Source of the DNA: a virus
DNA length: 31,263 bases
Reading direction: 5' to 3' (one strand)
Virus record (IMG/VR): IMGVR_UViG_3300046804_002164
Location: 1 to 31,263 of that record
In this document: piece after piece, positions 3,690 through 24,266 of the stretch
Numbering within the stretch: the first letter of the stretch is position 1
Layout: each line of letters opens with the position of its first letter
Notes under the pieces: model-generated
What the model was told of the DNA's origin: nothing
What the model saw: only the letters and a program-made list of their open reading frames with translations
The model's database searches: none
Position numbers and translations under genes: made by a program

Positions 3690-3701
3690 AATTTTATTTA
3701 G
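3690..3701 (-). promoter_or_regulatory. possible late-promoter variant CTAAATAAAATT
   Basis: A 12-nt box spanning the stop codon of the giant fibre gene, 27 nt before the start of the 67-aa gene. The identical 12-mer occurs at 25192-25203, also on the minus strand at a stop codon and about 20 nt before gp26. Confidence 0.3.
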
Positions 3702-6700: not shown

Positions 6701-9700
6701 GATGGGACATCTACAATTTTAAATGTACCATTCATGGTTGGTTCCATGAATCCACTCAAGTCTAAAGAATCACCAATATTATTATTAATTGCTGAAACTT
6801 GTACGAAAGAATAAATTGTTGGAGGACCAGCTGGATCTGGAGATACCGACATAGTATTTCCAATTGCATATGCACTACCACCATCCACAATTTCTACGGA
6901 TGCAATTGTATTTGCTGCGGATACAACTACTTTTGCTGACGCATTTTTTCCAGGTAGAGATGCATTAAGTAACTCTGAAGAATAGATTGTACTTGTAACG
7001 CCAGCGTTGTTGTTATATCCTGCTCCAGGATTGAGTAGAGTTACAGATTTTACTGAATTTAAATTATGTTCAATATCAGTGAATATAGTAACCGTGGTGT
7101 TACCAGCACCACTTACTATGGCTCCAGTAATCGCATATCCAACCCTGTTATTTTCAAAGAAGTAGTTTAAAGCTTCTTTGGTTATAGAATTTTTCTTATC
7201 ACTTGTTCTAACAATACCGAGAGGAGACAACTCAGCATAACTTACTGAAGGTGCTGGGTCTGAGTTGTAGTTATCTCTATCAATTTGAGGAAAAAGATTC
7301 TTTACATCTTGATTAAAGTTTCTATCACTTATACCAAATCCAATTGTTTTAGTTGGACTAATACTACCAGATAAAACAGTAATATTGTAGATACCATCTT
7401 GACCACCAGCACCAGGGATAAGTGGTTTAACTTCAGTACTTCTGTAAATGAAGATACTATCTCTTGACTTTTCTTTTTCAATGGTCGGTAGAGCTTCAAC
7501 CTGTTGTTGAGTAGATCTTTGGTTTACCTGATTTAAAAATGTTCCTGGATCTGAACCAATTCCTACAGAAAACTCTCTAGGATTTGGTACTGTTTGAACT
7601 ACAAAAGATCCATTATAAGATTCTACAGAATCATTTGAACTTACCACATTAGATATTTTTACAGTATCACCTACTTGTAGATGGTGAGGTAGTTCAGTTT
7701 TTATATTAGCGCTTCCACCAGCATAAGAGGCGGTAGTGATAATTTTAGGATTTCTTAACTGAATTACATCAGACAGTTGAGATGATAAGTATGATGCACT
7801 AGTAATTCCTGTTGTCTTTGATTCTTGAAGAACAAATCCATCGGTTGGTGGACGAGCATTTACAAATTCTTTTGGAATAACATAACGCAGTTTATAAACT
7901 CTATCATCTAAACCTCTGTTATCTACTCTTCTTGTAACAAATGTAGATCCGGTTTGATTTCCTAGTAATGTTGTTCCAATACCCACAATACCATCATAGA
8001 TTGTATTGTCAATAGAAATTGGGCTAGTTTGAACATACCATTGTTTCTGAGTATCATCGTATTGAATTGGATGACCAACTTCTCCAGGAGACTTGTCGGA
8101 CACAAAGCTAGTTATTTCTAATCTTCCTCCACCATTTGAAATTCCTGTAATGGTATTTCCAGAACTAGAATCATTAAGTGTTGATGCTAATTTGATTTGA
8201 TTGGCACTTAATGATGTGGTATTTACATAATAGATTTTATCAGCAGATAAGTTTTCTGGAAGATCGCCATTATCACTAGTAACTCTTACTTTTTCTCCAT
8301 TGAAAAATGTATGATTTGATGTGAGAGTTATAATATTTGAACTAATACTATTGATTCCAATTGCTCTACCAACAACGAATGTCTTTTTAGATGAGGTTCC
8401 AATTCCACTTGGAACTTGCATCAAAATTGGAGCTCTAAAGTTACTCTGTTGAGCACCTAGGATAATATTTAAATTCAGTTCTTCACCTTCCTTAGCGCCT
8501 ATTCTATAGGAGTCAATCTGAGAAGGGGGTGGAACTGTTTTACTTTCATAACCAGCAATATAAAGTCTAGATGTAGTTGCTGCAGAAATGATTTTTGATA
8601 CATCTAATGGTAACCAAGTAACATTAGTTTCCCTGTAGATTAATTCCCTAGGAGGAATGACATGCGTAATGTAACCAACATCGTCTCTATCGAATGATTC
8701 TGGTCTAAATCCAACCGCTTCTAAAGATACCGCACCAAAGTTGGAGTTTGAGTTTGTAATTGATTGGTCACCACCACTTTCCGCAACAAAATGTTTTGCA
8801 TAACCAATAGCAAAAATCGAAACACACTGAATGATGGAATTATTGCTACACTTCATGTGTACATTTTCCCAGCCAGGCTTATAAATTGATCTGGAATTTG
8901 TGTGTAGAGGTTTTTCTGATTCAGCTACAGTTAGATTTTCGTTATAGATTCCTGTAGTTTTATCGTATAAAATAAAGGCATTATCATCCTTTTGTAGTGA
9001 AATACCAGTAAACTGAGCAGTCAACATGGATTTAAATCCAGTTGCTTTAGATCCATCTGCATGAAGACCGTTCATGCCATATACAGATCTCAATGTACAT
9101 GCAAAGATATATGGAGAAGCTGATGAAACACTATCAGATTCTACAATTGTTCTTGCATTTAAAATTTGAGTTGATGATGGTAAAGCTATTACTGGAGTTG
9201 ATGGAGCAACATACTGGAATACAGTATCACTAAGCACATCGCTGACTAAGAAAGATCCGTTATATTCATCAACACTGGTTGTAATACCACTAACAAGAAC
9301 TGGTGTATCTTTAAATAGTCCGTGAGCAGTTGATGTAGTTACTGTGACTGTAGTCGTTGGCACAAGTCCATTACCAGCTTTGATGCTAGTAATACCAATA
9401 GGATCTGCACGAAGATCTCCAACAATTCTAAATTCATCTACAGATGGCTCAAAGTCGGAAATATTATTTACGGGATAATTGGGAATACCTCTTCCAGATG
9501 TATCGCCATAAGCATAAGTTACCTTATAATAAAACATTTCAAGGTCTGTAAGACCTGTTGATCCGTGGGATCCTAGGATAACCTCATTTACACCATCAGC
9601 ATATTCAAATGCGGTTAGTTTGTGGTGAGAATAGTTTGGAACAACTTTTCTTCCAGTTGAATCTTTATAACATGCTCTTTGCGGATCTGCATCAAAAATC

Positions 9701-10266
9701 GTAAACGAGGTGAAGTAACAAGTACCAGTTACTCTAAAAATAGCCGATCTTTCTACCGAATCATTTAGAGGATCAGGTACATACATTGGACGAAGTTTGG
9801 TTTTTCTTAGATCCAAACCAACGATGGAAGTACCTCTAGGTAGAATTACACCACCATCAACTGAGTTATATTTGTGTAAATCATTGTCTTCATCAAAAAT
9901 ATCAAAGTTTGAATTTTCTGTAAATTCAGTTAGAGTTGCTCCTGTTGTAGTCCAAACACCATTTACATATCTTCTAAATTCTGCAGTTCCGCCTTGATTT
10001 GTAATTGAGTGCCCAGGTCTATTATCAATATAATGTACACCAGGATAAACTAGGATAGTCGTTGAATCAATTTTATCGTTATTTCTTCCTACTACATACG
10101 AAAATCTTGCTGCCTCAATTACCGCTCTCTGAATTGTTCTAAAAGGTCTTGTAAGTGAGTTACCTCTGTTTTCAATACTATCAGTAGCGTCAAAGTCAGA
10201 AGGGTTTACATAAAGGATATTACCTTCGGCATTCTTTAAAAAATTCTCTAATCTACTTAGGGGCAT
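3694..10266 (-). CDS. giant virion fibre/structural protein with S74 intramolecular chaperone
   Basis: A 2190-aa protein. The N-terminal region (LYVNPSDFDATDS, then RPFRTIQRAVIEAARFS) looks like the parallel-beta-helix entry typical of large cyanophage structural proteins. A long repetitive beta-rich body follows; residues about 1700-2000 repeat short units of the type NTGIIT-x-L/F separated by Thr/Ala/Gly-rich turns. Two GxGY-type repeats occur in the middle. The C-terminus, from about residue 2095, is a Peptidase_S74/endosialidase-type chaperone. It has SDERIK (nucleophile Ser and Lys at +5), IGVIAQEVEKVLPDVV, and a terminal coiled coil IKELKGEISELRAELDEL. By family knowledge this domain trimerises the fibre and then autocleaves. 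It is probably a long tail fibre or baseplate-attached host-recognition protein. A terminator and late-type box precede it. Confidence 0.8.
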   Translation of the reverse strand: MPLSRLENFLKNAEGNILYVNPSDFDATDSIENRGNSLTRPFRTIQRAVIEAARFSYVVGRNNDKIDSTTILVYPGVHYIDNRPGHSITNQGGTAEFRRYVNGVWTTTGATLTEFTENSNFDIFDEDNDLHKYNSVDGGVILPRGTSIVGLDLRKTKLRPMYVPDPLNDSVERSAIFRVTGTCYFTSFTIFDADPQRACYKDSTGRKVVPNYSHHKLTAFEYADGVNEVILGSHGSTGLTDLEMFYYKVTYAYGDTSGRGIPNYPVNNISDFEPSVDEFRIVGDLRADPIGITSIKAGNGLVPTTTVTVTTSTAHGLFKDTPVLVSGITTSVDEYNGSFLVSDVLSDTVFQYVAPSTPVIALPSSTQILNARTIVESDSVSSASPYIFACTLRSVYGMNGLHADGSKATGFKSMLTAQFTGISLQKDDNAFILYDKTTGIYNENLTVAESEKPLHTNSRSIYKPGWENVHMKCSNNSIIQCVSIFAIGYAKHFVAESGGDQSITNSNSNFGAVSLEAVGFRPESFDRDDVGYITHVIPPRELIYRETNVTWLPLDVSKIISAATTSRLYIAGYESKTVPPPSQIDSYRIGAKEGEELNLNIILGAQQSNFRAPILMQVPSGIGTSSKKTFVVGRAIGINSISSNIITLTSNHTFFNGEKVRVTSDNGDLPENLSADKIYYVNTTSLSANQIKLASTLNDSSSGNTITGISNGGGRLEITSFVSDKSPGEVGHPIQYDDTQKQWYVQTSPISIDNTIYDGIVGIGTTLLGNQTGSTFVTRRVDNRGLDDRVYKLRYVIPKEFVNARPPTDGFVLQESKTTGITSASYLSSQLSDVIQLRNPKIITTASYAGGSANIKTELPHHLQVGDTVKISNVVSSNDSVESYNGSFVVQTVPNPREFSVGIGSDPGTFLNQVNQRSTQQQVEALPTIEKEKSRDSIFIYRSTEVKPLIPGAGGQDGIYNITVLSGSISPTKTIGFGISDRNFNQDVKNLFPQIDRDNYNSDPAPSVSYAELSPLGIVRTSDKKNSITKEALNYFFENNRVGYAITGAIVSGAGNTTVTIFTDIEHNLNSVKSVTLLNPGAGYNNNAGVTSTIYSSELLNASLPGKNASAKVVVSAANTIASVEIVDGGSAYAIGNTMSVSPDPAGPPTIYSFVQVSAINNNIGDSLDLSGFMEPTMNGTFKIVDVPSSRSVSILIENGVPSTNFRTRNDDRLPIAYLSAKGIGVSTITHNKVAGIATVICTEGHGLLSGNSFKLVGIGNTYFSKKFIVNETLGITSFSFYSGITTVTQTWNLTGVTIQKSAISANGRALGLGEENLGGRGNLLYVGVSTTLANPITSTDTSIVLTNANGFKKGDYISINSEIIRLVSDAASNVFSVIRGQFSTTASASETGSIVRKIRILPMEIRRPSILRASGHTFEYLGYGPGNYSTGLPVKQDRILSNEEVLVSQAREQDGGTVVYTGMNDRGEFYSGATKINGATGEEETIDAPVVTFFGDEGETVERRNSGVFDDLVVKERLTVEGGENNNQTSQFYGPVNFTQKLTSTADAGLETRDLYIKGVASQPKLLTVGIATPTEAKRSGDISFLATPDPGGFIGHVYADGDWRRWGMISQDKDRDYLKLDQIGVGQSSGIYNFSDAVEVNGTLKVKNLYVGGAVTFAGAQAIGNAAFDVIDLNSTIKFAGVGTNYTILTANANTIAQFQNLEVTGYAATFTTAKVTFGESFNSTYSGVSTVAGTLVVNNLVANTGVITAANMIVNNLNAGRLSVSTEAYITSGIITAIRTRYLGGLGNAGVGETVGQIMMNVGIITSLTGTACTITTINGTDAFITGVRANTALATPLATINTGIITNFKSTTAGITSVYVNTGIVTTLIVPSVGYLGATIDGWFGAPTAYVNTGFTTNSVITNYMSAPTGYINSGIITTLSGNASGATGGTLKYLNAQVGASLWLSGSSSGQGIFANAGIITNFGQSDKITLIHCGDGATGNPVGVVTAALFRSAIPTGTAPITVQSTTVCTNLNADLLDGRNSTYFFRGETNVWQTSDDSANRLYLATSGQTIFGSPANGYEFRGSSNTAIFTIDNTGNIAAAGEVTANSDERIKTNIKTIENALDKVTQLRGVEYDRTDIEAHQIGVIAQEVEKVLPDVVHTKEDGMKSVAYGNIVAVLIESIKELKGEISELRAELDELKGTK

Positions 10267-10395: not shown

Positions 10396-11007
10396 TTACC
10401 ACTTAACTTCTTTCCAGGCAAGTCTTTCTTTTAACTCTTTTTGAAAAACCATAAGATACCGATGTTTACGAGACCGATCCCTCCACTCACCATCAGAACC
10501 TTTAATACTACCTCTAGAATGTTTAGTTCCATCAGTATAATAAAAGTCTTTCTTGGGATCTGTTAGACCGTAGTATTGAAAATTGCAAGCTCTGTATATA
10601 GTTCCAGTGTGGTGATCAGAGTCAGCGTAACTAAGAATAACAGAAACTGTGGCATCTTTCCTAAACCTCTTAATGCAACGACTAACGAACCATGAAGTAA
10701 TATTATATTCTTCTTTCTGAACCTCTGGGTCTATGCATAAACGAGAAAGTTCAAATAAACCTTCTTGTTCATCTCTTTGGAGACCAAATGCACCTACAGC
10801 TATTTCTGGTACTGGGAGACCAGTAAAAACGCAAGCGCCAAGACACCTGCCAATTCTAAGGGGACATTCCCACTCAGTATGTCTGAAAAGCCCATAGTTA
10901 TATCCAGATTTAAAGTCTTTAGATTCGTCTTTTAAGTAATGATGTGTATAAAGAAGATCTTTAATATCATCTTTACTAACTCTATCTATGTAAAAATTAC
11001 TTTTCAC
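10396..11007 (-). CDS. Mom-like GNAT-fold DNA-modification enzyme
   Basis: A 203-aa protein with a GTG start. The centre reads FELSRLCIDPEV, then SWFVSRCIKRF, then SVILSYADSDHHTGTIYRACNFQYYG. This is the arrangement seen in phage Mu Mom and its relatives: L-x-R-x-C, a helix with paired Arg, SYAD, and G-TIY-A-N-x-x-Y-x-G. Mom enzymes are GNAT-like proteins that convert adenine in DNA to a methylcarbamoyl derivative and so block many restriction enzymes. The C-terminus is basic (DGEWRDRSRKHRYLMVF), consistent with DNA contact. It is the last gene of the accessory cassette, before the terminator. It could instead be a GNAT relative with another nucleobase or tRNA target; family membership is well supported by the motifs, exact chemistry is not. 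Confidence 0.7.
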   Translation of the reverse strand: MKSNFYIDRVSKDDIKDLLYTHHYLKDESKDFKSGYNYGLFRHTEWECPLRIGRCLGACVFTGLPVPEIAVGAFGLQRDEQEGLFELSRLCIDPEVQKEEYNITSWFVSRCIKRFRKDATVSVILSYADSDHHTGTIYRACNFQYYGLTDPKKDFYYTDGTKHSRGSIKGSDGEWRDRSRKHRYLMVFQKELKERLAWKEVKW

Positions 11008-11020
11008 TGAGTATAATTAC

Positions 11021-11185
11021 TTACTTTTGTTTGTGTTTCACAATATATTCTACCGTATTCGCAACATCACTCATAGCTCCACGCAAATCTTTTTGACTAC
11101 CCGCGTGTTGATCCATTGTTGAGGGATCTGTGAGAGTCCATCTCCATTGATCCATTTCTTTATTGTGCCAGAGATTTATGATCAT
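11021..11185 (-). CDS. small hypothetical protein (54 aa)
   Basis: This short frame begins at an ATG whose ATGA overlaps the stop of the upstream 2OG oxygenase gene (11182-11185), a strong sign of coupled translation. It fills the otherwise empty space before the Mom-like gene. The product starts MIINLWHNKEMDQWRW, has a middle rich in polar residues, and ends in a basic helix (IVKHKQK). No family is recognised and no membrane segment is visible. Its value lies in the context: it is co-transcribed between a 2OG-Fe(II) oxygenase and a putative DNA-modification enzyme. Confidence 0.6.
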   Translation of the reverse strand: MIINLWHNKEMDQWRWTLTDPSTMDQHAGSQKDLRGAMSDVANTVEYIVKHKQK

Positions 11186-11736
11186 TTGAATTCTACATTA
11201 CTGATATTAAAGGCTATTGAAACTCTTTCTTCATTAGATTGATTTTCTTCAACACTGTGAATTAACCAATAAGGAAAAAGTAAAAGTTCATTCTCTAAAG
11301 GAGTATAAGGAGCAACAGAATTCCCATCATTATAATACATCAATGGTTCTGAACGAAGTTGCATATAATTTCTAGGATCCTGAAAAACTATATTTCCGGA
11401 ATTATGTGGAACTTTTACATATAAAATTCCAGAAAGAAATCCACCTCTAGTTAAATGTTCATGTGGATCATTGGATGATCCATTATAATTTATATTTACC
11501 CAAGCATCAAAAGTATAATTCCCAATTCTTAAATCTGGTCTTTGGGGAATGTATTGTCTGATTTTTTTCTCAAAATATTCATCATGAAAATTTCCACCTT
11601 GATATCCACCATTATTGGAGTATTCTCTATTTGGAATATTTTCTTCATGTTCTTTAATTTTTTTATATAGATACTCTAAATCAAAGTCACATTGATGTGA
11701 AAAAATTTGAGTTGGAAATAAATTAATAGTATCCAT
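11182..11736 (-). CDS. 2OG-Fe(II) oxygenase family protein (184 aa)
   Basis: The sequence follows the putative 2OG-Fe(II) oxygenase pattern common in cyanophages (the 2OG-FeII_Oxy_5 type). It has an N-terminal FPTQIF, an iron-binding segment with DPHEH (His92, His94), SGILYVKVP, SGNIVFQDPR, then LLLFPYWLIHSV (distal His160) and ERVSIAFNI (Arg171, expected to bind 2-oxoglutarate). The expected double-stranded beta-helix core fills the protein. Substrate is unknown; cyanophage members are proposed to act on nucleobases, proteins or small molecules. It follows tRNA-Thr and is translationally coupled to the 54-aa ORF. Confidence 0.8.
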   Translation of the reverse strand: MDTINLFPTQIFSHQCDFDLEYLYKKIKEHEENIPNREYSNNGGYQGGNFHDEYFEKKIRQYIPQRPDLRIGNYTFDAWVNINYNGSSNDPHEHLTRGGFLSGILYVKVPHNSGNIVFQDPRNYMQLRSEPLMYYNDGNSVAPYTPLENELLLFPYWLIHSVEENQSNEERVSIAFNISNVEFK

Positions 11737-11751
11737 AATTTTGTTTTAAAA

Positions 11752-11825
11752 AGCCCCCGGCCGGACTTGAACCGGCGACCTACGGTTTACAAAACCGTTG
11801 CTCTATCCAGCTGAGCTACAAAGGC
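11752..11825 (-). tRNA. tRNA-Thr (anticodon UGU)
   Basis: A complete cloverleaf. Acceptor GCCTTTG pairs with CGGGGGC (three G-U pairs), the D arm is GCTC/GAGC, anticodon stem ACGGT/ACCGT holds loop TTTGTAA, and the T arm is GCCGG-TTCAAGT-CCGGC. No CCA is encoded. The anticodon reads ACA, an A-ending codon favoured by AT-rich phage genes. It lies between cpeT and the 184-aa oxygenase gene. Confidence 0.93.
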
Positions 11826-11836
11826 AAAAAATCGGA

Positions 11837-12319
11837 TTATTTCCGATCAAATTCAAAAAAACCTCCATTTACTTGCGTAAATGATCCCCATACATGTTCT
11901 CTAGTATTTACATCATATCCTTTGTCTATGACTCGATAGTGATTCTCGGATAAAAAACTTTCTGTTAAAAGAAAAGTATCTCTACCATCTTTATTTACAT
12001 AACAATTTTCACAACAACTTTTTCCATGAAATTGGGTTCCATCCCACTCAAATATTGTATCGCATCCATCTAAGTATGTCAACCCATTATCACTTTCTTT
12101 ATAATTTTTTGTAATAATTAAATCACCTTCTTGACAAACTTCTATGATTGTGGTTCGATATGGTTCTGATTCATGTGCATATCCTTGAGTAACTTTGAAT
12201 TTGTTTTGTTCAATTGGTTTATGATTTAAAGCAATTAAAGCAAAATCTTGAGGATATGTAAATGCTTGTGTTTGATTGTCAAAGTAACCTGCAAAATAAT
12301 CTTTGAATATTTCAATCAT
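11837..12319 (-). CDS. cpeT: CpeT/CpcT-type phycobiliprotein chromophore lyase
   Basis: A 160-aa auxiliary metabolic gene. The order of motifs matches CpeT/CpcT: an N-terminal GYFDNQTQAF with downstream FALIALNHKPI, then PYRTTIIEV, LDGCDTIFEWDGTQFHGKSC, and a C-terminal TESFLSENHYRVIDKGYD then HVWGS. In cyanobacteria these proteins attach or handle bilins on phycoerythrin or phycocyanin beta subunits in the phycobilisome. Cyanophage copies are known and may maintain light harvesting during infection. The usual calycin-type beta barrel of about 190-200 residues is slightly shortened here. Neighbours are tRNA-Thr downstream and a 2OG oxygenase upstream. A CATAAATA box lies about 25 nt before the ATG. 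The presence of cpeT indicates a phycobilisome- or phycoerythrin-containing host lineage. Confidence 0.87.
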   Translation of the reverse strand: MIEIFKDYFAGYFDNQTQAFTYPQDFALIALNHKPIEQNKFKVTQGYAHESEPYRTTIIEVCQEGDLIITKNYKESDNGLTYLDGCDTIFEWDGTQFHGKSCCENCYVNKDGRDTFLLTESFLSENHYRVIDKGYDVNTREHVWGSFTQVNGGFFEFDRK

Positions 12320-12343
12320 AAACTTAAATTATTACTTGAATCT

Positions 12344-12351
12344 TATTTATG
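12344..12351 (-). promoter_or_regulatory. possible late-type promoter box CATAAATA before cpeT
   Basis: CATAAATA on the minus strand matches the T4 late box at seven of eight positions. It ends 24 nt before the cpeT ATG and overlaps the 3' end of the upstream oxygenase gene. It could give cpeT late expression within the cassette. Confidence 0.35.
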
Positions 12352-12823
12352 AAGTGTACTTTATTGCTAAAGTAAATCTTGGACCTTGCCTAAATGAAGA
12401 AGCGCAATGTCTGATATTTGCATCAAATAACACGGCTCTGTTTGTTATGGGTAAAACACCTTTTATTTCATTATTAATGATGAATTTAGTTTCACCTCCT
12501 TGGTCTAAATCAAAATTTGGATTTGGATAAAACAATAAAGTTTTGTCATTTCCAGTTCCATCTATGTGGTAGTATGGTTTTTCTCCCGGAAGAAACAAAT
12601 TAATATACATTCTGTATACTCTTTGTTTTAAACTAAATGTTCCCTCGCATTTTTCTTTAAAAAATTTAAACCAGAAGTCTTCTTGATTTAGAGTCGTTAT
12701 AAGTCCTGTGGGAGGAGCATATGGAGCATCTTTTTCACCATAAAAATAAGGCGATTTTAAACAAAAATTATAAAAAGATTTTAAATCTAATTCTTCAATA
12801 AAATTATCAACTACTTTAATCAT
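12347..12823 (-). CDS. 2OG-Fe(II) oxygenase family protein (158 aa)
   Basis: A 158-aa single-domain protein with the full iron/2-oxoglutarate signature. YYHIDG supplies HxD (His86, Asp88). GGETKFI is a conserved core strand. AVLFDANIRHCASSF carries the distal histidine (His139), and GPRFTLAIKY holds the arginine that would bind 2-oxoglutarate (Arg149). The architecture resembles prolyl-4-hydroxylase-like enzymes that are widespread in cyanophages. The target is unknown. It is distinct in sequence from the second oxygenase at 11182-11736, so it is probably not a recent duplicate. It lies directly after tRNA-Leu. Confidence 0.82.
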   Translation of the reverse strand: MIKVVDNFIEELDLKSFYNFCLKSPYFYGEKDAPYAPPTGLITTLNQEDFWFKFFKEKCEGTFSLKQRVYRMYINLFLPGEKPYYHIDGTGNDKTLLFYPNPNFDLDQGGETKFIINNEIKGVLPITNRAVLFDANIRHCASSFRQGPRFTLAIKYTS

Positions 12824-13604: not shown

Positions 13605-13626
13605 GTGACACTTCTTCAAGTGTCAC
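13605..13626 (-). terminator. perfect 9-bp hairpin at the end of the hub operon
   Basis: GTGACACTT pairs perfectly with AAGTGTCAC around a 4-nt loop, overlapping the stop codon of the 565-aa gene. There is no U tract, so it may be a transcript-stabilising or processing structure rather than a classical terminator. Confidence 0.45.
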
Positions 13627-15320
13627 TCAAATTCTCTAAAGTCATTTGATTCTAATGAATTAACTTCCTGAGTTAATCTTTTTACATCATTAATAAGAGA
13701 TCCTCTACCTCTACGATATGCCCAAGCTGTAGATTGTTTTCCATCCCTTATTGATCTCAAAGTCCCACTTTTTGATATGTATTCATTGATGATGGGCAGA
13801 TTTGTATTTTTTGTTGAATTTAATTGAGTTTCTGCAGTGGTAATTGTGGTGTCGGAAGTGTTACAAGTTCCTGCAGAAGGAGCTAATGCTGAAGTTGAAG
13901 TATATCCAATACCAGCACTTGAATAACCTATACCAGCAAGAACGGTTATAGTTTGTCCTTCTGAAGCATAAGAAAAAGTATATCCAGTAATTACTAATCC
14001 AACTATCGTTGGAGTCAATACACCAGGCCAAGAAGTGTTTCCGACATAATAATAATCATATCCTGCCCCTACTGAAGGTTCTGATTGAACATATTCCGTA
14101 TAAGCTTTAGTTACATCCGGATCCCCATTATTAATGAGTATAATAGAGTGTCCATATCCAGTTTTGTTATTATCTTTTATAATCCCAATTTCTATAGGAT
14201 TTTCTCCATTTGTAGTAGGATCAAAATCTTCATCTGTTCCTGTGGATCTTATAATGAAGAAATTATCATCAGATGTTCCATATGGAGTTGTAGTACTGAT
14301 GAAGATAGTAGGATATGAAGTGTAAATTCCTACATTAAAAATTGCTTGAGAAGTAGAAGCAATTGCTGGTTTACTTAAAATAATTGAATTAGTATTAATA
14401 GAAAATGTTGTTGTAACTCCTAAAGTATTAATTCCTGTGACAGAAACTGTAGTTGTTCCAAATCCAACCACTAAACTATCTGTTGAAGTTATTCCTGTTC
14501 TCCATATTTTACTTCCAGTTGTAATACCATTGGTAGTATTAAATCCGGTATAAGCTAAAACAGTAGATCCAACTGAAATACTAGCACCAAAAGTAGTACT
14601 AATACCCAATAAACTTGTTGATCCAAATCCCACAACTTCGGGCAACTGACCAATGGTAAAAATTGTAGGTTGTTCTATGGAATCTGTTATTGTATCTCCC
14701 GTTTGAATTCCTGAAAGAATTGTAAAACCTTGAGTAGTTGTTGTGGAATCATACACAACCATATAAGTACTTCCTATACCAACAGAAGCACTGGGAAGTT
14801 CTTTTACTGCACTTGAACCATAATCTCTATCTTTTGGTCTCTTATAGTATTTCGCACCATAATAGTTTATTTGTCTATAATCAGCAGCTATTTTTTTAAC
14901 TTGATATGTATTGTATACTTGTGGTCCAATTGTACCAATTCCAGTTATTGTCCTTGATGAAATTAAAACCCACTCCAAATCATTTTTACATCCATTTGCA
15001 ATTCTTGCACGATATGCATCACCAACTGCCGTTATTTTTGTGTTTATATCATTAATATATGCAGGAATTTTGTTATCGATGTTTGTGATTAATTCATCAT
15101 ACATATCCAAATCAATGTCAAGTAACAATAACATGTCATTGATTTGTTCTTTTTGTACTTTTTTAGATTGCAACTCAGTTTTAAGAGAATCTATAATTTT
15201 TTGTACTTTTGTTTGGGATGTAGATGTACTGAGTCCCAATATAGATTTTATGGAAGTTGCTGCTTCAGAAACTCCAGATGTAGTGCTTAATTGTGATGTT
15301 GTTCCTATACCTGTTGACAT
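13623..15320 (-). CDS. virion structural protein, Ser/Thr/Gly-rich, coiled-coil N-terminus (565 aa)
   Basis: Residues about 35-95 are helical with heptad character (VQKIIDSLKTELQSKKVQKEQINDMLLLL and DMYDELITNIDNKI). A conserved-looking segment NGCKNDLEWVLISSR precedes a long low-complexity beta region built of short Ile/Gly/Ser/Thr units (VGFGSTSLLGISTTFG, ITTGSKIWRTGITST). The C-terminal 60 residues return to a helix (IRDGKQSTAWAYRRGRGSLINDVKRLTQEVNSLE). This layout, two helical ends around a beta-rich shaft, suits a trimeric fibre or baseplate-attached protein. Its ATG overlaps the stop of the 279-aa fibre-type gene (TAATG), and it ends the hub operon. Exact role unknown. Confidence 0.65.
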   Translation of the reverse strand: MSTGIGTTSQLSTTSGVSEAATSIKSILGLSTSTSQTKVQKIIDSLKTELQSKKVQKEQINDMLLLLDIDLDMYDELITNIDNKIPAYINDINTKITAVGDAYRARIANGCKNDLEWVLISSRTITGIGTIGPQVYNTYQVKKIAADYRQINYYGAKYYKRPKDRDYGSSAVKELPSASVGIGSTYMVVYDSTTTTQGFTILSGIQTGDTITDSIEQPTIFTIGQLPEVVGFGSTSLLGISTTFGASISVGSTVLAYTGFNTTNGITTGSKIWRTGITSTDSLVVGFGTTTVSVTGINTLGVTTTFSINTNSIILSKPAIASTSQAIFNVGIYTSYPTIFISTTTPYGTSDDNFFIIRSTGTDEDFDPTTNGENPIEIGIIKDNNKTGYGHSIILINNGDPDVTKAYTEYVQSEPSVGAGYDYYYVGNTSWPGVLTPTIVGLVITGYTFSYASEGQTITVLAGIGYSSAGIGYTSTSALAPSAGTCNTSDTTITTAETQLNSTKNTNLPIINEYISKSGTLRSIRDGKQSTAWAYRRGRGSLINDVKRLTQEVNSLESNDFREFE

Positions 15321-16172: not shown

Positions 16173-16724
16173 TCATTCATCTAACCATTTCTGGAATTTT
16201 GTGACAATTCCCATTAATTGGGATAATATGGAAGATTGAGATTTTTCAACACCAGAATTTTGAGTATTTTGCATGTTTCCAGTCGTATCAGTTGATTGAG
16301 CGCCAACTGACGCACTGTTACTCATTACAGTGTTAGATGTTCCACCTTTCATACTTTGCACTGGAGCATTAACAGCAAAATGTTTTCCAGAAACTACTGT
16401 TACTTCACCAGCACCATCAAGGGCAACAACTCTAATGTTTTTACCTCTTAAAATTATATCACCATCCATTGCTTCAATAATAATGTCACCTTTTTTAGCT
16501 CTTATGACTTTTGCTGGTACTTTGTCAGTCCCTTCTACACCAGAAATATCATAAGATGTTTTATTGGCTATTTGTGTATGATTACCATCGGTGGTAAATT
16601 CAAATCCCTGAGCATTGTCAGTAAACATTGCATAATCTATTGTCCTTCCTTTTGCATCTACAGTTCCAGATTTTACTACAAATCCTGGCTTCTTTTCGTA
16701 ATACTCTTTTGGTTGATCTGTCAT
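16173..16724 (-). CDS. beta-helix baseplate spike-like protein (183 aa)
   Basis: The central part (about residues 60-125) alternates strand and turn in a repetitive pattern: VIRAKKGDIIIEAMDGDIILRGKNIRVVALDGAGEVTVVSGKHFAVNAPV. This resembles the triple-stranded beta-helix of T4 gp5 C-terminal and VgrG-type spikes. A low-complexity Ser/Asn/Thr linker and a C-terminal helix follow. It begins 4 nt past the stop of the OB-fold gp5-like gene. I infer that the gp5 needle has been separated into its own gene here, forming the puncturing tip below the hub. This is based on pattern and position, not a direct match. Confidence 0.6.
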   Translation of the reverse strand: MTDQPKEYYEKKPGFVVKSGTVDAKGRTIDYAMFTDNAQGFEFTTDGNHTQIANKTSYDISGVEGTDKVPAKVIRAKKGDIIIEAMDGDIILRGKNIRVVALDGAGEVTVVSGKHFAVNAPVQSMKGGTSNTVMSNSASVGAQSTDTTGNMQNTQNSGVEKSQSSILSQLMGIVTKFQKWLDE

Positions 16725-16727
16725 GAG

Positions 16728-18953
16728 TTACACACAATCTACTACATTTACAACTGAACCTATTCCAACATTCAAATCGGGATTGTCTGCAATGAATTGG
16801 GGAACAAACTGTAGAACTGGATAAATCACAGCTCCTTCACCTGTCTTTGTATTTATGCTGACAATCGGAGTGGTATTGAAAGTTTGTTTGCATGTGCCAT
16901 TTGATTTAAAGTCAATAATGGACCCATTGGCAGTAAGAATTGGTTGATAGAAACAATTTCCTACCTGTATTGTATCACCAGAAGTATATCCAAGTCCGGG
17001 TCGTTCGATAACAAGACTGGTATTAATTCCTACTACTGCATTGGATAATCTACGATTCCCAACATCTAAACATGGCAATTGTGTAGAAGTGGATCCAATT
17101 CCAGTAGTTGAAGCTGGAGAAGTTTCTTCCGTCAAGTTTGTTTGACAATATCCTTGACCAGGATTAACAATGTAAATTGATGTAACTTTTCCGTCTATAA
17201 CCTTTGTTCTTGCTTGAGCGCCTTTACCATAATTGGAGTTATCGACGATTTTAATTTCTGGTGGATATGTATATCCTTTACCAGGATCACACAATAAAAA
17301 TGTTACAATAGATCCATCAACTTCAGATATAACTGCTTTTGCTCTTGCACCGATACCATCCCCATAGATGGTCACTTCTGGTGGAATACATTTATAGAAT
17401 CTAACTCCTATTGGCATTGGAGTAAGATCTTCTTGTGTCTGTGGATTTACAATCTTTTTTCTACAATCTCTAAATGGTGTATCTGAAGAACCAAAAGCGG
17501 ATAGATATCCTAGTGAAAAGTCTGGAGTTCCTAGTGAATTTAGGATATCCATGTTAGATAGAACGCTTTGCCAACTATCTAACGATGGGAAAGATGCTCC
17601 TGCAAAAGGATCCCAAGAAGTCGTGCTCTTGCAAGCTAATGAATCGCAACTTAAAAAACTTAAAATTTGAGAAATCATATTCAATCCACCAGTTAAAGCG
17701 GATGCGATAGAACTAATTCCATTAGCTAACCAATCTAGACCTGATAGAATTGTGGATAAAGCTCCATCTATCATATCCGCAAGTTTATTTACTAATGAAC
17801 CAGTTATTTCTTCAACTGCACATCTAGGTATATTTGGACTCTTACCTATGAGTCCATTTAATAGACCCATAATAAAATCCATCAAAGGTCCAAATAATTT
17901 CTCAAAAAGACAGAAAATAATATTTAAAATATTTTTTGCAGCTTCTGAAATAGGTAATTGTTGTGGTGATGGAATGGTAATACCAAGAAGTTTGAATAAT
18001 TTTCCAATTAATTTGAATATGTTATCTCTCATTCCATTAATCACGAATTTCATAATGGATGCGACAAGTCTTGCTACCGATCTGACTAACTGTTGAACAT
18101 CTACAACAACATTTCTGATTGGATCTATAAAACCTAAAGCAGTTTTTTCATAACTATTGATTGTTTGTATAAATGTTTGTAACGCAGTTGTTATTTGAGA
18201 TAAAATATCATTTCCACAACCATTTTCCCCTTTGACTGGCCCAAGATCTTTTACCGTCTTTAAAAAACCTGCCTCAGCTTTATCTCCATAAAATAGTTGG
18301 TCTTTTGGAATGTTAGGTGCTCCATAAGTTGCTCCAGCGCCACCACTTGTATCAGTTGTTAATGGACTAAATCCTGGATCTAAATCCAAACTACCTGTTG
18401 CGTCTGTTCCAAACTTTGCATTTGAAAACATTTCAAATTGAGAACCAGGACCAAGATTCTCTTCTACTTTTTTAGCTGTACCATCACCTTGAGCTTTATT
18501 TCTAGTTGCCTGTGGTCCAGATGCAAATGGACCTTTACTTCCCGTAAAAGGTTCAAATGGATTTGGATTATCTATATTTTCTACAACAGGACTTCTATGA
18601 AAACATCCCATTACTACTGGTTGTTGAGCTTCTTCTCCATCTAAGAAGAATCCAACAACAGATTCACCACCAACAAGTAATGGAAGTTTACCAAACCCTC
18701 CCTGTGCTGGAGCACCATCAGATGCACTCGTTAATATGTGCGCCCAAGGTAGATCTTCGTCTTTAAGTTCATTTCTATCAAAACTATGATATCCAATAAT
18801 TCTTACTTTACATCTATATCCCCACGCTTCTTTTCCGTTGTCAATGCGTGTTTTATCATTACGCCAATATTTGGGGTCGGCAACTTGTCCGACCCACCAA
18901 ATAAAGCCGTCTCTTCCTAAGAAATTAGATTTTAAAAGAGCTTCATCAATCAT
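16728..18953 (-). CDS. 5: gp5-like baseplate hub protein with N-terminal OB-fold
   Basis: Residues 1-130 match the cyanophage form of T4 gp5: FIWWVGQVADPKYWRND, then a pattern of OB-fold strands (WGYRCKVRIIGYHS, LPWAHILTSASDG, VVGFFLDGEEAQQPVVMGCFHR). T4 gp5 then has a lysozyme domain and a beta-helix. Neither is seen here. Instead residues 240-430 are amphipathic and glycine-punctuated helices, followed by a C-terminal region with GxGY repeats (CDPGKGYTYPPEI, NPGQGYCQTN, RPGLGYTSGDTI). It would sit with gp27 at the centre of the baseplate. Its start overlaps the stop of the CP12-like gene by a base, and the beta-helix protein follows. Confidence 0.8.
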   Translation of the reverse strand: MIDEALLKSNFLGRDGFIWWVGQVADPKYWRNDKTRIDNGKEAWGYRCKVRIIGYHSFDRNELKDEDLPWAHILTSASDGAPAQGGFGKLPLLVGGESVVGFFLDGEEAQQPVVMGCFHRSPVVENIDNPNPFEPFTGSKGPFASGPQATRNKAQGDGTAKKVEENLGPGSQFEMFSNAKFGTDATGSLDLDPGFSPLTTDTSGGAGATYGAPNIPKDQLFYGDKAEAGFLKTVKDLGPVKGENGCGNDILSQITTALQTFIQTINSYEKTALGFIDPIRNVVVDVQQLVRSVARLVASIMKFVINGMRDNIFKLIGKLFKLLGITIPSPQQLPISEAAKNILNIIFCLFEKLFGPLMDFIMGLLNGLIGKSPNIPRCAVEEITGSLVNKLADMIDGALSTILSGLDWLANGISSIASALTGGLNMISQILSFLSCDSLACKSTTSWDPFAGASFPSLDSWQSVLSNMDILNSLGTPDFSLGYLSAFGSSDTPFRDCRKKIVNPQTQEDLTPMPIGVRFYKCIPPEVTIYGDGIGARAKAVISEVDGSIVTFLLCDPGKGYTYPPEIKIVDNSNYGKGAQARTKVIDGKVTSIYIVNPGQGYCQTNLTEETSPASTTGIGSTSTQLPCLDVGNRRLSNAVVGINTSLVIERPGLGYTSGDTIQVGNCFYQPILTANGSIIDFKSNGTCKQTFNTTPIVSINTKTGEGAVIYPVLQFVPQFIADNPDLNVGIGSVVNVVDCV

Positions 18954-19165
18954 CAGTCTTCGTAAATTTTACATTCAGCTGCACCTGGATGAGTATCACA
19001 GTAAAGTTCCAATGGTGTTGGATCGTGATCCTCACCGGGATGATTTACTTTATAAGCTTCTAATGCTTCTAATTCTTCTTGAGTATGTCTTCTTGCCTGT
19101 GGAGAGGTCACAGGATTGTCAAGAATTTCTTTGTCTTTTGCGATGTGTTCGTCTATGTTATTCAT
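18953..19165 (-). CDS. CP12-like small protein embedded in the hub operon
   Basis: A 70-aa acidic protein. Its C-terminus reads DPTPLELYCDTHPGAAECKIYED, close to the CP12 ending (DPLExFC-8 residues-C-R/K-V/I-Y-E/D-D). The two cysteines (56 and 65) are eight residues apart as in the C-terminal CP12 disulphide, and HTQEELEALEAY resembles the CP12 VEELQAE core. CP12 scaffolds GAPDH and phosphoribulokinase to switch off the Calvin cycle; cyanophages are known to carry it. The N-terminal cysteine pair of plant CP12 is absent. It overlaps gp27 (ATGA at 19162-19165) and touches the gp5 start. It might have been recruited as a structural or chaperone peptide instead. Confidence 0.65.
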   Translation of the reverse strand: MNNIDEHIAKDKEILDNPVTSPQARRHTQEELEALEAYKVNHPGEDHDPTPLELYCDTHPGAAECKIYED

Positions 19166-20460
19166 TGTTTTGCTCCATATAATCCGTAGGAGTCTCTAAT
19201 GAGTTTTAATGATGAAATCATTTGATTATCCTCAAAGTGATGTCTTACTTCTTTAATTAAGTAGTTTCCACTTTGTTCTGGATCAACCTCACCAGATTGT
19301 GATGCATCAACTTTTGCAAATTGTGCGTAAATTATAGTTCCCGCTTTCAAATTAATGTTCATGGGTACTATCATATTTAGTCCTTGTGTGAACAACAAAT
19401 TATAACGAGAAAATGATTTAGCCATATCTGTATTATCTCTACCAGAATCATCTGCCTCACCTTCTGCATCCATGATACCAATATCAGAAGATCTGAAAAG
19501 AATTCTTGATGGTCTGTTTCCAAAATCTTTTGGATATGGTAGTTTAGAACCTCCAAGTTTTGATTTAACTTCTGAGTTTAAACTATAAGTTATCCCATCA
19601 ATTTTATTTTTATAAAGATCATAAAAATATGTAATATTTGAATACATACCAACTCTGAGAGATTTCATCAAATCAGTATTCTTTTCAAAGTTGTAGTTGA
19701 TAATATTAAAGTTATTAGTAGTCACATTTGATTCCATGATACCCGGATCATATTTGTATTTTGGAATTGATTCTTTTGATGTACTACCACTTTGGGATTG
19801 TGTTTGCGAAACTAATGTATCTACGCTTCTAAAATTAAATCCATCTCGGTTTTCATAGAAAAGAAATCCAGCAACACCTTTTGCTTTTGTCCCACTATTA
19901 CCCGAAGATGAAGTTGCAGGAACTCCCTTTGGACCCAACCAAGTCAAAACATGAAATGGTTTCTTAAGTGTTCCAATAAAACTATAAGAGTTTGAAGTTT
20001 TCTCTATGTTTTTGGACTTATACTTTTTAGTTTTCAATACATCCTTAAGTATAGCTTCTACATGTTCATTAATTGGTTTTTTGATATACTTCTTTTGAAC
20101 TCTTGCAGTTTCGTTTGTAAGACCTTCTCTGGAACACAGATGTAATGTAAAATATTCTTTTGTTCCGTCTGCAACTATTGCACTTACTTTGTACACATAC
20201 ATTGCATAATCACCAGTAAGTTTGAAGTTTCCACTTGCAGTTTCAATGTCTAGTTCTACTTTTTCACCACCACGAATGGGTAATCCATTATAGATCGAAT
20301 ATGATGCAGCAACTTGAATGGTCATCATCACACAGGGGGATAATATATCCTCATAATAATCACAAAACACCATGGATCCAGTCAAGTCAATCTTCTTATT
20401 TGTTTCTGAAGATTGAATTTCGACAAAATTAAATTTTACAGAACTTACTGCATTTGACAT
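19162..20460 (-). CDS. 27: gp27-like baseplate hub protein
   Basis: A 432-aa protein at the usual gp27 size (T4 is 391). It has the expected hub features: an N-terminal beta-domain (KKIDLTGSMVFCDYYEDILSPCVMMTIQV), GGEKVELDIETASGNFKL, YVYKVSAIVADGTKEYFTLHLCSREGL with INEHVEAILKDVLKTKKYK, a second tube-like domain (HVLTWLGPKGVP, GFLFYENRDGFNFRSVDTL), and a C-terminal domain with FARYNLLFTQGLNMIVPMNINLKAGTII-like segments ending in SGNYLIKEVRHHFEDNQMISSLKLIRDS. In T4, trimeric gp27 forms the torus above gp5. It starts one base after the M23 protein gene and is followed by the CP12-like ORF and gp5. Confidence 0.82.
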   Translation of the reverse strand: MSNAVSSVKFNFVEIQSSETNKKIDLTGSMVFCDYYEDILSPCVMMTIQVAASYSIYNGLPIRGGEKVELDIETASGNFKLTGDYAMYVYKVSAIVADGTKEYFTLHLCSREGLTNETARVQKKYIKKPINEHVEAILKDVLKTKKYKSKNIEKTSNSYSFIGTLKKPFHVLTWLGPKGVPATSSSGNSGTKAKGVAGFLFYENRDGFNFRSVDTLVSQTQSQSGSTSKESIPKYKYDPGIMESNVTTNNFNIINYNFEKNTDLMKSLRVGMYSNITYFYDLYKNKIDGITYSLNSEVKSKLGGSKLPYPKDFGNRPSRILFRSSDIGIMDAEGEADDSGRDNTDMAKSFSRYNLLFTQGLNMIVPMNINLKAGTIIYAQFAKVDASQSGEVDPEQSGNYLIKEVRHHFEDNQMISSLKLIRDSYGLYGAKQ

Positions 20461-20461
20461 A

Positions 20462-22510
20462 TTAACTTCCCGATAAGTTGGTCAACAACATAGTCTTAAA
20501 TAAACTATTTAACACTTGTCCCTCAGGTACTGGGGGCATAATTGTTGTTCCGCCACCTTTTCCTCCAGAAGAAACTACCATTGGTCTTTGTTGAGATCCT
20601 CCTCCTCCACCACCCATCATCATGGGAACAATCATAACACTATTTTGGGGTGTATTATATGATGGATATTGTTGTAATGATTGTGGAGCTACAGATTGTT
20701 GTGATATTCCTTGAACTTGAGATTGTTTTGATAGATCAACCGATGATACCTGTTGAGTTATCATCTTTGCAATTTCGGAAGCCCTTGAACCAGGACTTGC
20801 TATTTTTGCACCAGGAATCATCTGAGCATTACTATCTCCAACAAATGTTGTTCCTTTATATTGACTTGCAATTTCTTTTGCGGAAGCATCAGTCAAATGT
20901 GCGTATGGTATTGCACCACTATTATCTTTCTGTTTATATTGTCCTTTTTTAACAGTTGCACCCATCTCTGCAGCTGCTTGTTGAACTGCTTTAGATACTT
21001 CTGCAGTTTGTCCAACTTCGGATGGTGGAACCACAACTACATTATATCCTTTATCTTGGAGAGCTTTAATCGCTTGTTTTATTCCGGCAGCTCCTCCTTT
21101 TGAATCTCCATAATCATTTGTTCCAGCCATCAACACAGCAGTTGGTCTACCCGGAGTACCCATCAGACCAGTTTGTGATTTTACTTTTGGTTTTACTGTA
21201 ACATTTCCACCAAATCTAAAAAATTTGTCGTCATTATTTCCAGAAGCTGGATCGGATGGTCCACCACCTTTTGGTAAATATTCATAATGTAAATGTTCTC
21301 CTCTAGAGTTACCTGCGCCTGGAGCACCAGGTTTACCACCAGAAAGTCCAATCATTGTTCCTGGTTCTATTTTTTGTCCTGCAGAGACAGTAATTTTACT
21401 TAAATGTGCATATCTTGTTGTTGATCCATCTGCATGTTGAACTTCTACTAATGCACCCCATCCGCCAGGATCATAATTTGAGTCTGCAACAGATACTGTA
21501 CCTGGTTGAACAACACTAATTGGAGTACCTGCAGAAACAAGGTAATCTATTCCATTATGATTTCTTCCGCCTCTAGGTCCAAAAGGAGATCCTCTTTTGG
21601 AACTAGGCAAATCTCCACCAGAAACACTATAATCTCCTAATTCCCCACTATTTTGATTAGTGTTATCTGCACTTTGCATGTCTGGTTCATAGGGATCTTC
21701 ATCTCCAGATTCACCCGCAGTTTCACCACTTGTAGGGCCCAATAATCCTCTATCTGCAGCTTTTTGAAATTCAGTTACAACACTATCAAACTTGTCCAGA
21801 ACTTGTGGAAGTGTCAATTCAGTGGCAGCTGCTTCTAATTTTTGTTTTTTCTCCTGTGCTTTAAGTTTGGCTTTTACTTTTTCTTTTACAGTATCTTTAC
21901 CAGTAACGGCTTCATATCCCCTATCAGCTAAGTAACCTCCCAAAAAATTACCAGCCATACTCCCAACAACAAATCCTAATCCTGGAACTGGTATTAGTGC
22001 TTGTCCTATTGCACCACCTAATAAAGATCCGGCAAGAGCACCACCTGCTCCAGCAGCAGATTTACCTACAGATTCTCCCTCCGCTAGACCAGTTGCAAAA
22101 TCCAATCCAGCAAATGCTGCATTTGCAATACCAATTGCTTTGATTCCGCCTAATCTAATTTTTGAACCTTTTGGTATTGGTTTTCCTGCTTTTGCTTTAT
22201 TTTTTCTACCCCCGAAGAAATCTCCAACCAACCCAGCAGCATCTAATGCACCACTTGCTAAACTTGATAGTAAACTTCCCGCAGATCCAAATGTTGATGC
22301 AACATTCAAGTTAGATAATCTTTTAACCTGACTTTCTTCAGGAAGTTTTATGGCTTTTATATTTTTTATTTCAACATTCATAAATCTCAAAAATTCATTG
22401 TATGAATTTTGAGTAGATCTCATTGTCGATTTTGATCTATTAGTGTTTACAATATTATTAAAAGCGGATACAAGAGGAGATCTTAAAGGTGTATTGGTTG
22501 GTTTTGCCAT
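20462..22510 (-). CDS. tape-measure/hub-type protein with M23 peptidase and SGNH-like domain (682 aa)
   Basis: Domain order: residues 1-100 helical; about 150-195 a glycine-zipper hydrophobic stretch (AAGAGGALAGSLLGGAIGQAL, VVGSMAGNFLGG); 205-250 charged coiled helix. Residues 306-412 are an M23 (LytM) endopeptidase with HNGID (His318, Asp322), YAHL (His369) and HLH (His406, His408). Residues 455-590 have GTND (463-466), AHLT (His538) and GDS (558-560), the signature blocks of an SGNH hydrolase but in permuted order. The C-terminus is Gln/Ser/Gly-rich. It would cleave peptidoglycan cross-links while the tail traverses the wall. It follows a second wall-hydrolase protein and precedes gp27. One of these two probably acts as tape measure (T4 gp29 function). 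Confidence 0.8.
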   Translation of the reverse strand: MAKPTNTPLRSPLVSAFNNIVNTNRSKSTMRSTQNSYNEFLRFMNVEIKNIKAIKLPEESQVKRLSNLNVASTFGSAGSLLSSLASGALDAAGLVGDFFGGRKNKAKAGKPIPKGSKIRLGGIKAIGIANAAFAGLDFATGLAEGESVGKSAAGAGGALAGSLLGGAIGQALIPVPGLGFVVGSMAGNFLGGYLADRGYEAVTGKDTVKEKVKAKLKAQEKKQKLEAAATELTLPQVLDKFDSVVTEFQKAADRGLLGPTSGETAGESGDEDPYEPDMQSADNTNQNSGELGDYSVSGGDLPSSKRGSPFGPRGGRNHNGIDYLVSAGTPISVVQPGTVSVADSNYDPGGWGALVEVQHADGSTTRYAHLSKITVSAGQKIEPGTMIGLSGGKPGAPGAGNSRGEHLHYEYLPKGGGPSDPASGNNDDKFFRFGGNVTVKPKVKSQTGLMGTPGRPTAVLMAGTNDYGDSKGGAAGIKQAIKALQDKGYNVVVVPPSEVGQTAEVSKAVQQAAAEMGATVKKGQYKQKDNSGAIPYAHLTDASAKEIASQYKGTTFVGDSNAQMIPGAKIASPGSRASEIAKMITQQVSSVDLSKQSQVQGISQQSVAPQSLQQYPSYNTPQNSVMIVPMMMGGGGGGSQQRPMVVSSGGKGGGTTIMPPVPEGQVLNSLFKTMLLTNLSGS

Positions 22511-22514
22511 AATA

Positions 22515-24266
22515 CTATCCGTCTACAATATTATAAACAATCTTAGAATATAATGTAAGGAAATTATCATTATTAGATGATGATAAAAATGGCACAGTTA
22601 CACCACCTTTATTCATAATTGGAGGTGCTATTGATTTTTCACCCATTTTTGTGGATTGGGTTTGTGGACTCGCCATATTCATTGGAGCAACTGTAACACT
22701 AGTTGATTGTTGAACTGGTGGTTGTGCAACTGTCTGAGCAACTTGTTGTGCAGTTTGTTGTTGGCCTGGGCCAGGCGCAACTTGTGAAGGTGGTTTTTCA
22801 GCTACAGTACCTGTTGTTTGAGTCGCATAATACTTATTGTAAATTTCAAGAGATTGTGCTGATGTTCTATTGGTTTGTCCATAATAAGGAGTCAGGCCTG
22901 CCCACTGAGTTCCTGCTTTTTCTATATCTGCTTTGGTTGCTCTTTTGGTTGGGTCAACACCAGTAAGTCTTAAATTTGCAAGTCCAAGTTTATCCTGTAT
23001 TTCTGGTGTAAGAGGCGTATTGGGGTCTATTCCTGCTGCTTTTGCAGCCCTTAACATAGTATCTGGCATGAATTGATATGCACCAGTTGCACCACTAACT
23101 TGACCTTTATAACTACCATAATTTACAGTTTTTCCTCCCAATCTTTGTGGAAGTTTTCCTGTTCTGGAAAGTTCTGCAGCTTCGGCAATAGTTAGTTTAC
23201 CCCCAGCAAGTTCTGGAACTACCTGTCCTCCAAATATCTTACCATATCCATCTTTTCCAGCAGTTCCTTCCGCCTCTCTAATTGTCTGTAACCATGCCTT
23301 TTCTTCTTTAGTATCTGCAGTTACATCTCCAGCATTACCACCAGAACCTGGTCCCCCTGGTGGTTTTTTATCATCCGCTGGTTTAGCAGTCCCAGTACCT
23401 AGACTCGGTTGTTTAGGTGCAGGTTTTTGTCTACCTAGAGAGTTTATTGCCGCAGAGAATTTATCTAAAATTGAATTAAATCTATCCAATAGTGATCCTG
23501 GTATCATACCTTCAGACATTGGAGCTGGTTGAACATTTCCATCTGTGGGATCCATCATTCCACTTACGACTTGACTTCCCAAAGCACCAGTACCTACAGC
23601 TGCAGTACCTAAGGCGGCCATTTTTAACATCCTACCAGTTTTACCTCCTGGTAAAGTTCTTTTTAGTGGCCCCCCTGGAACATTAATATCTAAATTTAAT
23701 CCGCCACCGCCTCCAGTCGCTTGAGGTAAATTTGAAAGTTGTTTGACAATTTTTATAATAGTTTGACGAATAATTTTTGCAATATCAAAAGTTTCTGCAA
23801 ATACACTTTGTAAAGCTTTTAAATTATCTCCAAGAGTTTTTACATTTCTCTTGTTACCTAAGAATTGAATATAACCTAACGCTTCTTTATATAAACTTAA
23901 GAAATTTTGTAAGATTGAATTTGGAGTTGCAGAATCAATCTGATCCAATCTTTCTTTATAATTTTGTTCCAATCCACCAATAGCTCTATTAACTACTTGG
24001 GTTACATTCTGATTTATTGATTGTACTCTATTTTCTACATTGTTTAGAATACTTGTAGATAATGTTTGAATGATTCCTTGAAGATCTGGTGGTCTTGCAG
24101 CAACTCCAGCAGCACCTCTTTGGAACCCTACAATTTTATTTGCAGCAGAAGCAACAACTCCTTCACCAAGAGGAGAACCACCAGTAATAAAATTCTGAGC
24201 AGCCGCAGCCGTAGTACTTCTTTCTCTTGCAATACTAGCGGGATTGAGTGCTGAACTAATTGCCAC
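22515..24266 (-). CDS. tape-measure-like protein with lysozyme/transglycosylase-like domain (583 aa)
   Basis: The start is GTG, overlapping the 61-aa ORF by 11 nt. Residues 60-180 are long helices (VENRVQSINQNVTQVVNRAIGGLEQNYKERLDQID and later), 215-235 an Ala/Gly hydrophobic segment, then Pro/Gly-rich linkers. Residues 322-480 resemble the lambda R-type lytic transglycosylase: WLQTIREAEGT with catalytic Glu333, GYGKIFGG, SGATGAYQFMP, a helical lobe, and a final TQWAGLTPYYGQ. The C-terminal 100 residues are Gln/Pro/Val-rich. Following directly on gp26 and the 61-aa ORF, it occupies the position of tape-measure genes in other tailed phages. It is a good candidate for a tape measure with a wall-cleaving domain, with a gp29-like role. 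Confidence 0.78.
   Translation of the reverse strand: MAISSALNPASIARERSTTAAAAQNFITGGSPLGEGVVASAANKIVGFQRGAAGVAARPPDLQGIIQTLSTSILNNVENRVQSINQNVTQVVNRAIGGLEQNYKERLDQIDSATPNSILQNFLSLYKEALGYIQFLGNKRNVKTLGDNLKALQSVFAETFDIAKIIRQTIIKIVKQLSNLPQATGGGGGLNLDINVPGGPLKRTLPGGKTGRMLKMAALGTAAVGTGALGSQVVSGMMDPTDGNVQPAPMSEGMIPGSLLDRFNSILDKFSAAINSLGRQKPAPKQPSLGTGTAKPADDKKPPGGPGSGGNAGDVTADTKEEKAWLQTIREAEGTAGKDGYGKIFGGQVVPELAGGKLTIAEAAELSRTGKLPQRLGGKTVNYGSYKGQVSGATGAYQFMPDTMLRAAKAAGIDPNTPLTPEIQDKLGLANLRLTGVDPTKRATKADIEKAGTQWAGLTPYYGQTNRTSAQSLEIYNKYYATQTTGTVAEKPPSQVAPGPGQQQTAQQVAQTVAQPPVQQSTSVTVAPMNMASPQTQSTKMGEKSIAPPIMNKGGVTVPFLSSSNNDNFLTLYSKIVYNIVDG

Follow-up and report, generated by a model that had tools for sequence, protein, structure and literature searches.

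A candidate circularly permuted SGNH domain beside an M23 endopeptidase in a phage tail protein

Circularly permuted SGNH folds are known from the AlgX/AlgJ and DHHW (PatB1) proteins, which carry their blocks in the order H-S-G-N and have acetyl groups on exopolysaccharide or wall polymers as their targets (PMC9487903, PMC4148444). A tail protein that pairs endopeptidase and SGNH domains has likewise been described, in gp44 (Tal) of Staphylococcus phage phi11 (PMC5380687). The phage domain analysed here differs from both. Its order is N-H-S-G rather than the H-S-G-N of AlgX/DHHW (PMC9487903), and its GTND and GDS motifs are intact, whereas AlgX and AlgJ have a Tyr in block III and a DxH in block V. 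For phi11 gp44 no permutation is mentioned (PMC5380687), and the host and tail type of that phage are unrelated to those of the virus studied here. The combination of an endopeptidase with an SGNH domain is therefore already known from gp44, and only the rearranged order is new; a limited literature search found no report of an SGNH domain with the order N-H-S-G.

By sequence, the best match after rotation of the blocks is the C-terminal domain of OatA, a peptidoglycan O-acetyltransferase (5UFY/5UG1). It shares GDSxAxR with most DxxH-bearing members of the phage family, as well as an Asn in block III and the succession of helix and strand after it. OatA differs in its natural S-G-N-H order, in being a bacterial acetyltransferase fused to a membrane acyltransferase domain, and in length (about 170 residues for OatA-C versus 135 for the phage domain). 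The same domain, in the same order, occurs in the tail 'endolysin' of Synechococcus phages ACG-2014d and S-SSM4 and cyanophage S-SSM6b, whose gene immediately precedes one for a tail protein, but there the carrier protein is different and the motifs have decayed (GSKD, no His, GDQ or GDK). The cyanophage copies are annotated merely as endolysin or hypothetical protein. In the ACG-2014d (L007:2107-4929) and S-SSM6b (L008:2131-4560) proteins all catalytic motifs of the permuted domain are lost; in the related L081 they are intact.

The window, meaning the whole stretch of DNA analysed, is a 31263-base virus contig (IMG/VR record IMGVR_UViG_3300046804_002164). The domain lies in a 682-residue protein, with the following features in and around its gene.

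20462..22510, minus strand: ORF of 682 amino acids, M23 tail protein (ORF call and translation)
21248..21562, minus strand: Peptidase_M23 domain, residues 317-421 (Pfam E 2.8e-21, motif positions)
20738..21154, minus strand: candidate circularly permuted SGNH-like domain, residues 453-591 (family alignments, AF2 pLDDT 90.4, rotated-profile tests)
22515..24266, minus strand: 583-residue neighbour, phage endolysin family (PHROG 90, E 9.8e-26)
19162..20460, minus strand: 432-residue tail protein, directly downstream of the 682-residue gene (PHROG 350, E 1.3e-100)
16728..18953, minus strand: baseplate hub, gp5-like (PHROG 1922, E 2.4e-110)

The N-terminal half of the 682-residue protein is Gly/Ala-rich and hydrophobic, and its M23 domain carries the HxxxD motif as HNGID at 318 and HxH as HLHYE at 406. 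With its gp5-like hub, the locus belongs to a T4-like cluster of baseplate hub genes, in which the other neighbours encode baseplate hub and tail tube proteins. In cyanophage ACG-2014d the gene with the homologous domain likewise lies directly upstream of a gene annotated as a tail protein, and a CpeT-like antenna protein gene near the locus in the window points to a cyanobacterial host. The 583-residue neighbour shows a weak SLT transglycosylase match (Pfam SLT_2, E 0.009), with which the tail may bear three wall-active domains. Two further ORFs adjoin the baseplate genes, at 13623-15320 (565 residues) and 16173-16724 (183 residues), and have no PHROG match.

Within the domain itself, the SGNH features are distributed as follows.

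21113..21124, minus strand: block III GTND, residues 463-466, with Asn465 as the N of SGNH (motif position, hhalign)
20924..20926, minus strand: Asp529, aligned with the Asp of the relatives' DxxH
20897..20899, minus strand: block V His538 (PYAHLT; AHLT from 537), with Pro535 at -3 (motif position, hhalign)
20831..20839, minus strand: block I GDS, residues 558-560, putative nucleophile Ser560 (motif position, profile alignment)
20789..20791, minus strand: Gly574, candidate block II Gly (IASPGSRASEI; SPGS from 572), following the last strand in the model

Along the chain the blocks run III (GTND), V (His538), I (GDS) and II (around Gly574). An earlier note on this DNA had located GTND at 463, His538 and GDSN at 558 and had called their order wrong for an SGNH hydrolase; the positions proved exact and the order real. 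In hhalign comparisons GTND aligns with the GxND of bacterial SGNH proteins and His538 with the His of their DxxH, and GDS is aligned to the GDS of OatA. The same note held that the block V Asp had been replaced by Pro. A Pro does stand at -3 of His538 in the window, where 11 of the 33 family members have Asp, but the acidic residue persists as the aligned Asp529, which six inserted residues separate from His538; relatives read D-P-L-H-L here. The segment described as following block I (PGSRASEIAKMI) is also present, but it sits where the oxyanion-hole Gly of block II belongs, so that the full order is III-V-I-II. This block I-II segment is short, with a link of about 12 residues, and poorly aligned around the candidate Gly574, at whose position relatives show VVGAGT or NYRGQ.

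Relatives gathered by IMG/VR scans and isolate-phage searches comprise 33 distinct domains, among them some pairs of nearly identical sequence; identity falls to about 27%, and the domains occur in at least five protein contexts. In all 33 block III comes first, followed by V and then I; none has the natural order, I-II-III-V, of the SGNH superfamily, and all read III-V-I-II. By analogy with the accepted permuted AlgX family, it is this order that defines the variant. In the L036, L065, L067 and L080 proteins the domain stands at the very N-terminus, starting at residue 2-6; block III is thus shown to be where it starts, and it is no natural-order domain with its front removed. A complete DxxH is found in L014, L015, L025, L026, L041, L053, L058, L061, L064, L075 and L165, which make up the 11 of 33, as well as in L175 and in L173, an extra member read directly and outside the 33. 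One large subfamily combines D-P-L-H-L with GDSNAVRIAG, and in the window's own subfamily the conserved Asp, residue 529 in the window, is set apart from the His by a short insertion.

The carriers include M23 tail proteins, an Amidase_5 protein (L061), a lysozyme-like tail protein (L025) and ACG-type endolysins (L081). The L061 protein (L061:3107-5263) has a similar N-terminal tail-protein region and the permuted SGNH domain, followed by Amidase_5, with no M23 domain detected; the partner hydrolase appears to have been swapped. A search of isolate phages for close relatives in natural order, with the rotated query, returned, beyond one marginal match (E 3), nothing but known members through their block III-V part, and no relative turned up in a scan of bacterial genomes. 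For this domain, every Pfam and NCBIfam model stays below its own cut-off. Single-sequence scans of PHROGs, Pfam and NCBIfam gave sub-threshold GDSL matches only, the Pfam GDSL match in the 682-residue protein being located around block III.

The permutation was assessed with a rotated profile, in which the block I-II segment of an 18-sequence alignment was placed first, with a single cut whose position had been set ahead of any search. Among PDB sequences, OatA-C (5UFY, 5UG1) matched this S-G-N-H profile with an E of 8.8e-7, the alignment spanning blocks I to III; the native-order profile reached E 4.1e-4 with block III alone, and a second weak piece matched in swapped order. The OatA score was 31.9 bits for the rotated profile and 23.9 for the native one, against a maximum of 29.7 in 200 control trials with the columns of the block I-II segment shuffled. 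Averaged over a comparison set of 27 natural SGNH proteins from bacterial genomes, the rotated score again exceeded all 200 column-shuffled controls. Pfam GDSL_2 matched 15 of 18 members after rotation versus 11 of 18 in native order. When sequences rather than columns were shuffled, the family mean was 12.9 for the rotated and 10.5 for the native order, with a control maximum of 11.8 (100 controls); the gain per member in this HMMER test is small, falls short of significance for many single members, and is clear solely for the family mean and at the profile level.

An AF2 model of window residues 440-600 (pLDDT 90.4, pTM 0.84) and one of the DxxH subfamily (pLDDT 89.5, pTM 0.87) were both confident. 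Strands and helices alternate in the succession expected for SGNH strands 3, 4, 5, 1 and 2, and the fold recurs in the independent BFVD prediction for the ACG-2014d protein (E 2e-9). Sequential fold searches of the PDB with two models, performed with tools that cannot follow a permutation, listed no solved SGNH structure; the matches, all with Z below 8, were Usp, short-chain dehydrogenases, glycosyltransferases, HAD proteins and a designed Rossmann protein. The flavodoxin-like SGNH sheet, whose five strands are parallel and form the middle of a three-layer alpha/beta/alpha fold, runs 2-1-3-4-5, and a cut before strand 3 turns it into 3-2-1-4-5, the order of Rossmann and Usp folds. Rossmann-type matches are therefore what a permutation leads one to expect. 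With Z below 8 they may reflect merely a common arrangement, and they are consistent with permutation rather than conclusive. Of the checks put forward in the earlier note, the profile search with blocks in natural order improved the OatA match beyond 200 of 200 shuffled controls, and structure prediction of residues 440-600 returned a confident alpha/beta/alpha model instead of a chain without such a core. Its central proposal, a circularly permuted SGNH domain, gains further support from the conserved permuted order, from relatives with the full DxxH, and from the rotated-profile matches to OatA and bacterial SGNH proteins.

Ser and His are both kept in 23 of the 33 members and both absent in six, and the His alone is lost in four. 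The affected lines (ACG-2014d/S-SSM, L036/L065/L080, L067/L167/L172 and L034) lie at separate places in the tree, in which the intact-motif L081 is the sister of the decayed ACG/S-SSM group. With Ser or His gone from several lines, activity is evidently not required in every carrier. Across 13 pairs of domains dN/dS was 0.09-0.33. The window's clade (the window, L003, L004, L005 and L013) retains Ser, His and Asn throughout, and its pairs are under purifying selection, with dN/dS of 0.19-0.33. Together, the motif losses, their places in the tree and the dN/dS values suit an enzyme that has decayed to a non-catalytic module in some lines.

This pattern bears directly on the idea that the domain has a permuted SGNH fold and in the window is no longer an enzyme, acting as a structural or wall-binding tail module. 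The displacement of the Asp from -3 in the window's subfamily speaks for such a loss, as does the persistence, at dN/dS 0.2-0.3, of clades that have lost Ser or His; we nevertheless consider it rather unlikely for the window, given the purifying selection under which its clade has kept all three residues. An active window domain would have to rely on a Ser-His dyad, or on a triad completed by the displaced Asp529. Both catalysis and the closeness of Ser560 to His538 are inferred. Chance resemblance, with three short motifs falling within an unrelated alpha/beta domain, is in keeping with the brevity of the motifs and the weak single-sequence scores, but we judge it very improbable in view of conservation across a divergent family and the order-dependent gain over shuffled controls. 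An order kept in 33 domains, the dN/dS values and a gain seen only in the natural order together place the motif resemblance beyond chance.

A different descent would also account for the fold. The domain could be a Rossmann-type fold of the ordinary kind, HAD-like most probably, with an inherited 3-2-1-4-5 sheet and with SGNH motifs that arose by convergence. Residues 475-564 match NCBIfam HAD-IIIA (E 0.0058), and the HAD chains 4ap9, 4pnh and 3mmz are among the structural matches at Z 6-7. In native-order hhalign comparisons HAD-IIIA reached a probability of 30%, but it came second to the 27 bacterial SGNH proteins at 91% (Usp, 0.6%). HAD motif IV would then be the GDS, and motif II would fall at the end of the PPS strand, an assignment that we think improbable. 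The DxD of motif I occurs in none of the 33 members, whose first strand ends in AGTND or variants; GTND and DxxH are left unexplained; and the Pfam matches of 18 members include no HAD family up to E 0.1. Descent from such a fold is, on this evidence, quite unlikely.

We therefore lean, with somewhat better than even confidence, towards a C-terminal domain with a permuted SGNH-hydrolase fold of order N-H-S-G, serving wall-ester removal beside M23 in the baseplate hub. The chain would begin at core strand 3 (block III) and finish after strand 2 (block II), and its natural termini would be bridged by a short connection from the helix of block V to the strand of block I. Within the hub, M23 would sever the cross-links of peptidoglycan. 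The SGNH domain would take ester-linked groups, probably acetyl, off peptidoglycan or a wall polymer attached to it, and so open a path for the wall-cutting enzymes when DNA is injected. The sequence evidence for this reading is good, and the structural picture agrees with it but falls short of decisive. The analysis shows the order of the motifs and that it is conserved, a kinship in sequence with SGNH proteins (OatA nearest), a confidently predicted alpha/beta fold and an association with peptidoglycan hydrolases, whereas the sheet order, active-site assembly, activity and substrate are all inferred. Most likely the domain is a wall-esterase module of phages, fused to one peptidoglycan hydrolase or another. 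Its likeliest putative role is to remove acetyl groups from wall polymers, since the nearest relative acts on peptidoglycan acetyl groups and the domain travels with peptidoglycan hydrolases. We give an even chance to the broader proposal of a phage-specific natural SGNH permutant, cut between blocks II and III so that a 2-1-3-4-5 sheet becomes a Rossmann-type 3-2-1-4-5 with the active site kept, and forming a wall-esterase module among tail lysins that repeatedly decays to a non-catalytic state.

If true, the SGNH fold would be known to be cut at a second point by natural circular permutation, and the flavodoxin-like and Rossmann-type orders of strands would have a link in nature. That order-based searches miss the domain would then be explained, and the finding would point to ester removal as a testable step of cyanophage entry. 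Elsewhere in the window, genes for a Mom-like DNA modification protein, a 2OG-Fe(II) oxygenase, the CpeT-like antenna protein and endonuclease V stand in a row at 10396-12823, and a 2190-residue tail fiber protein (PHROG 529) is encoded at 3694-10266, with a C-terminus that resembles distal long-tail-fiber families.
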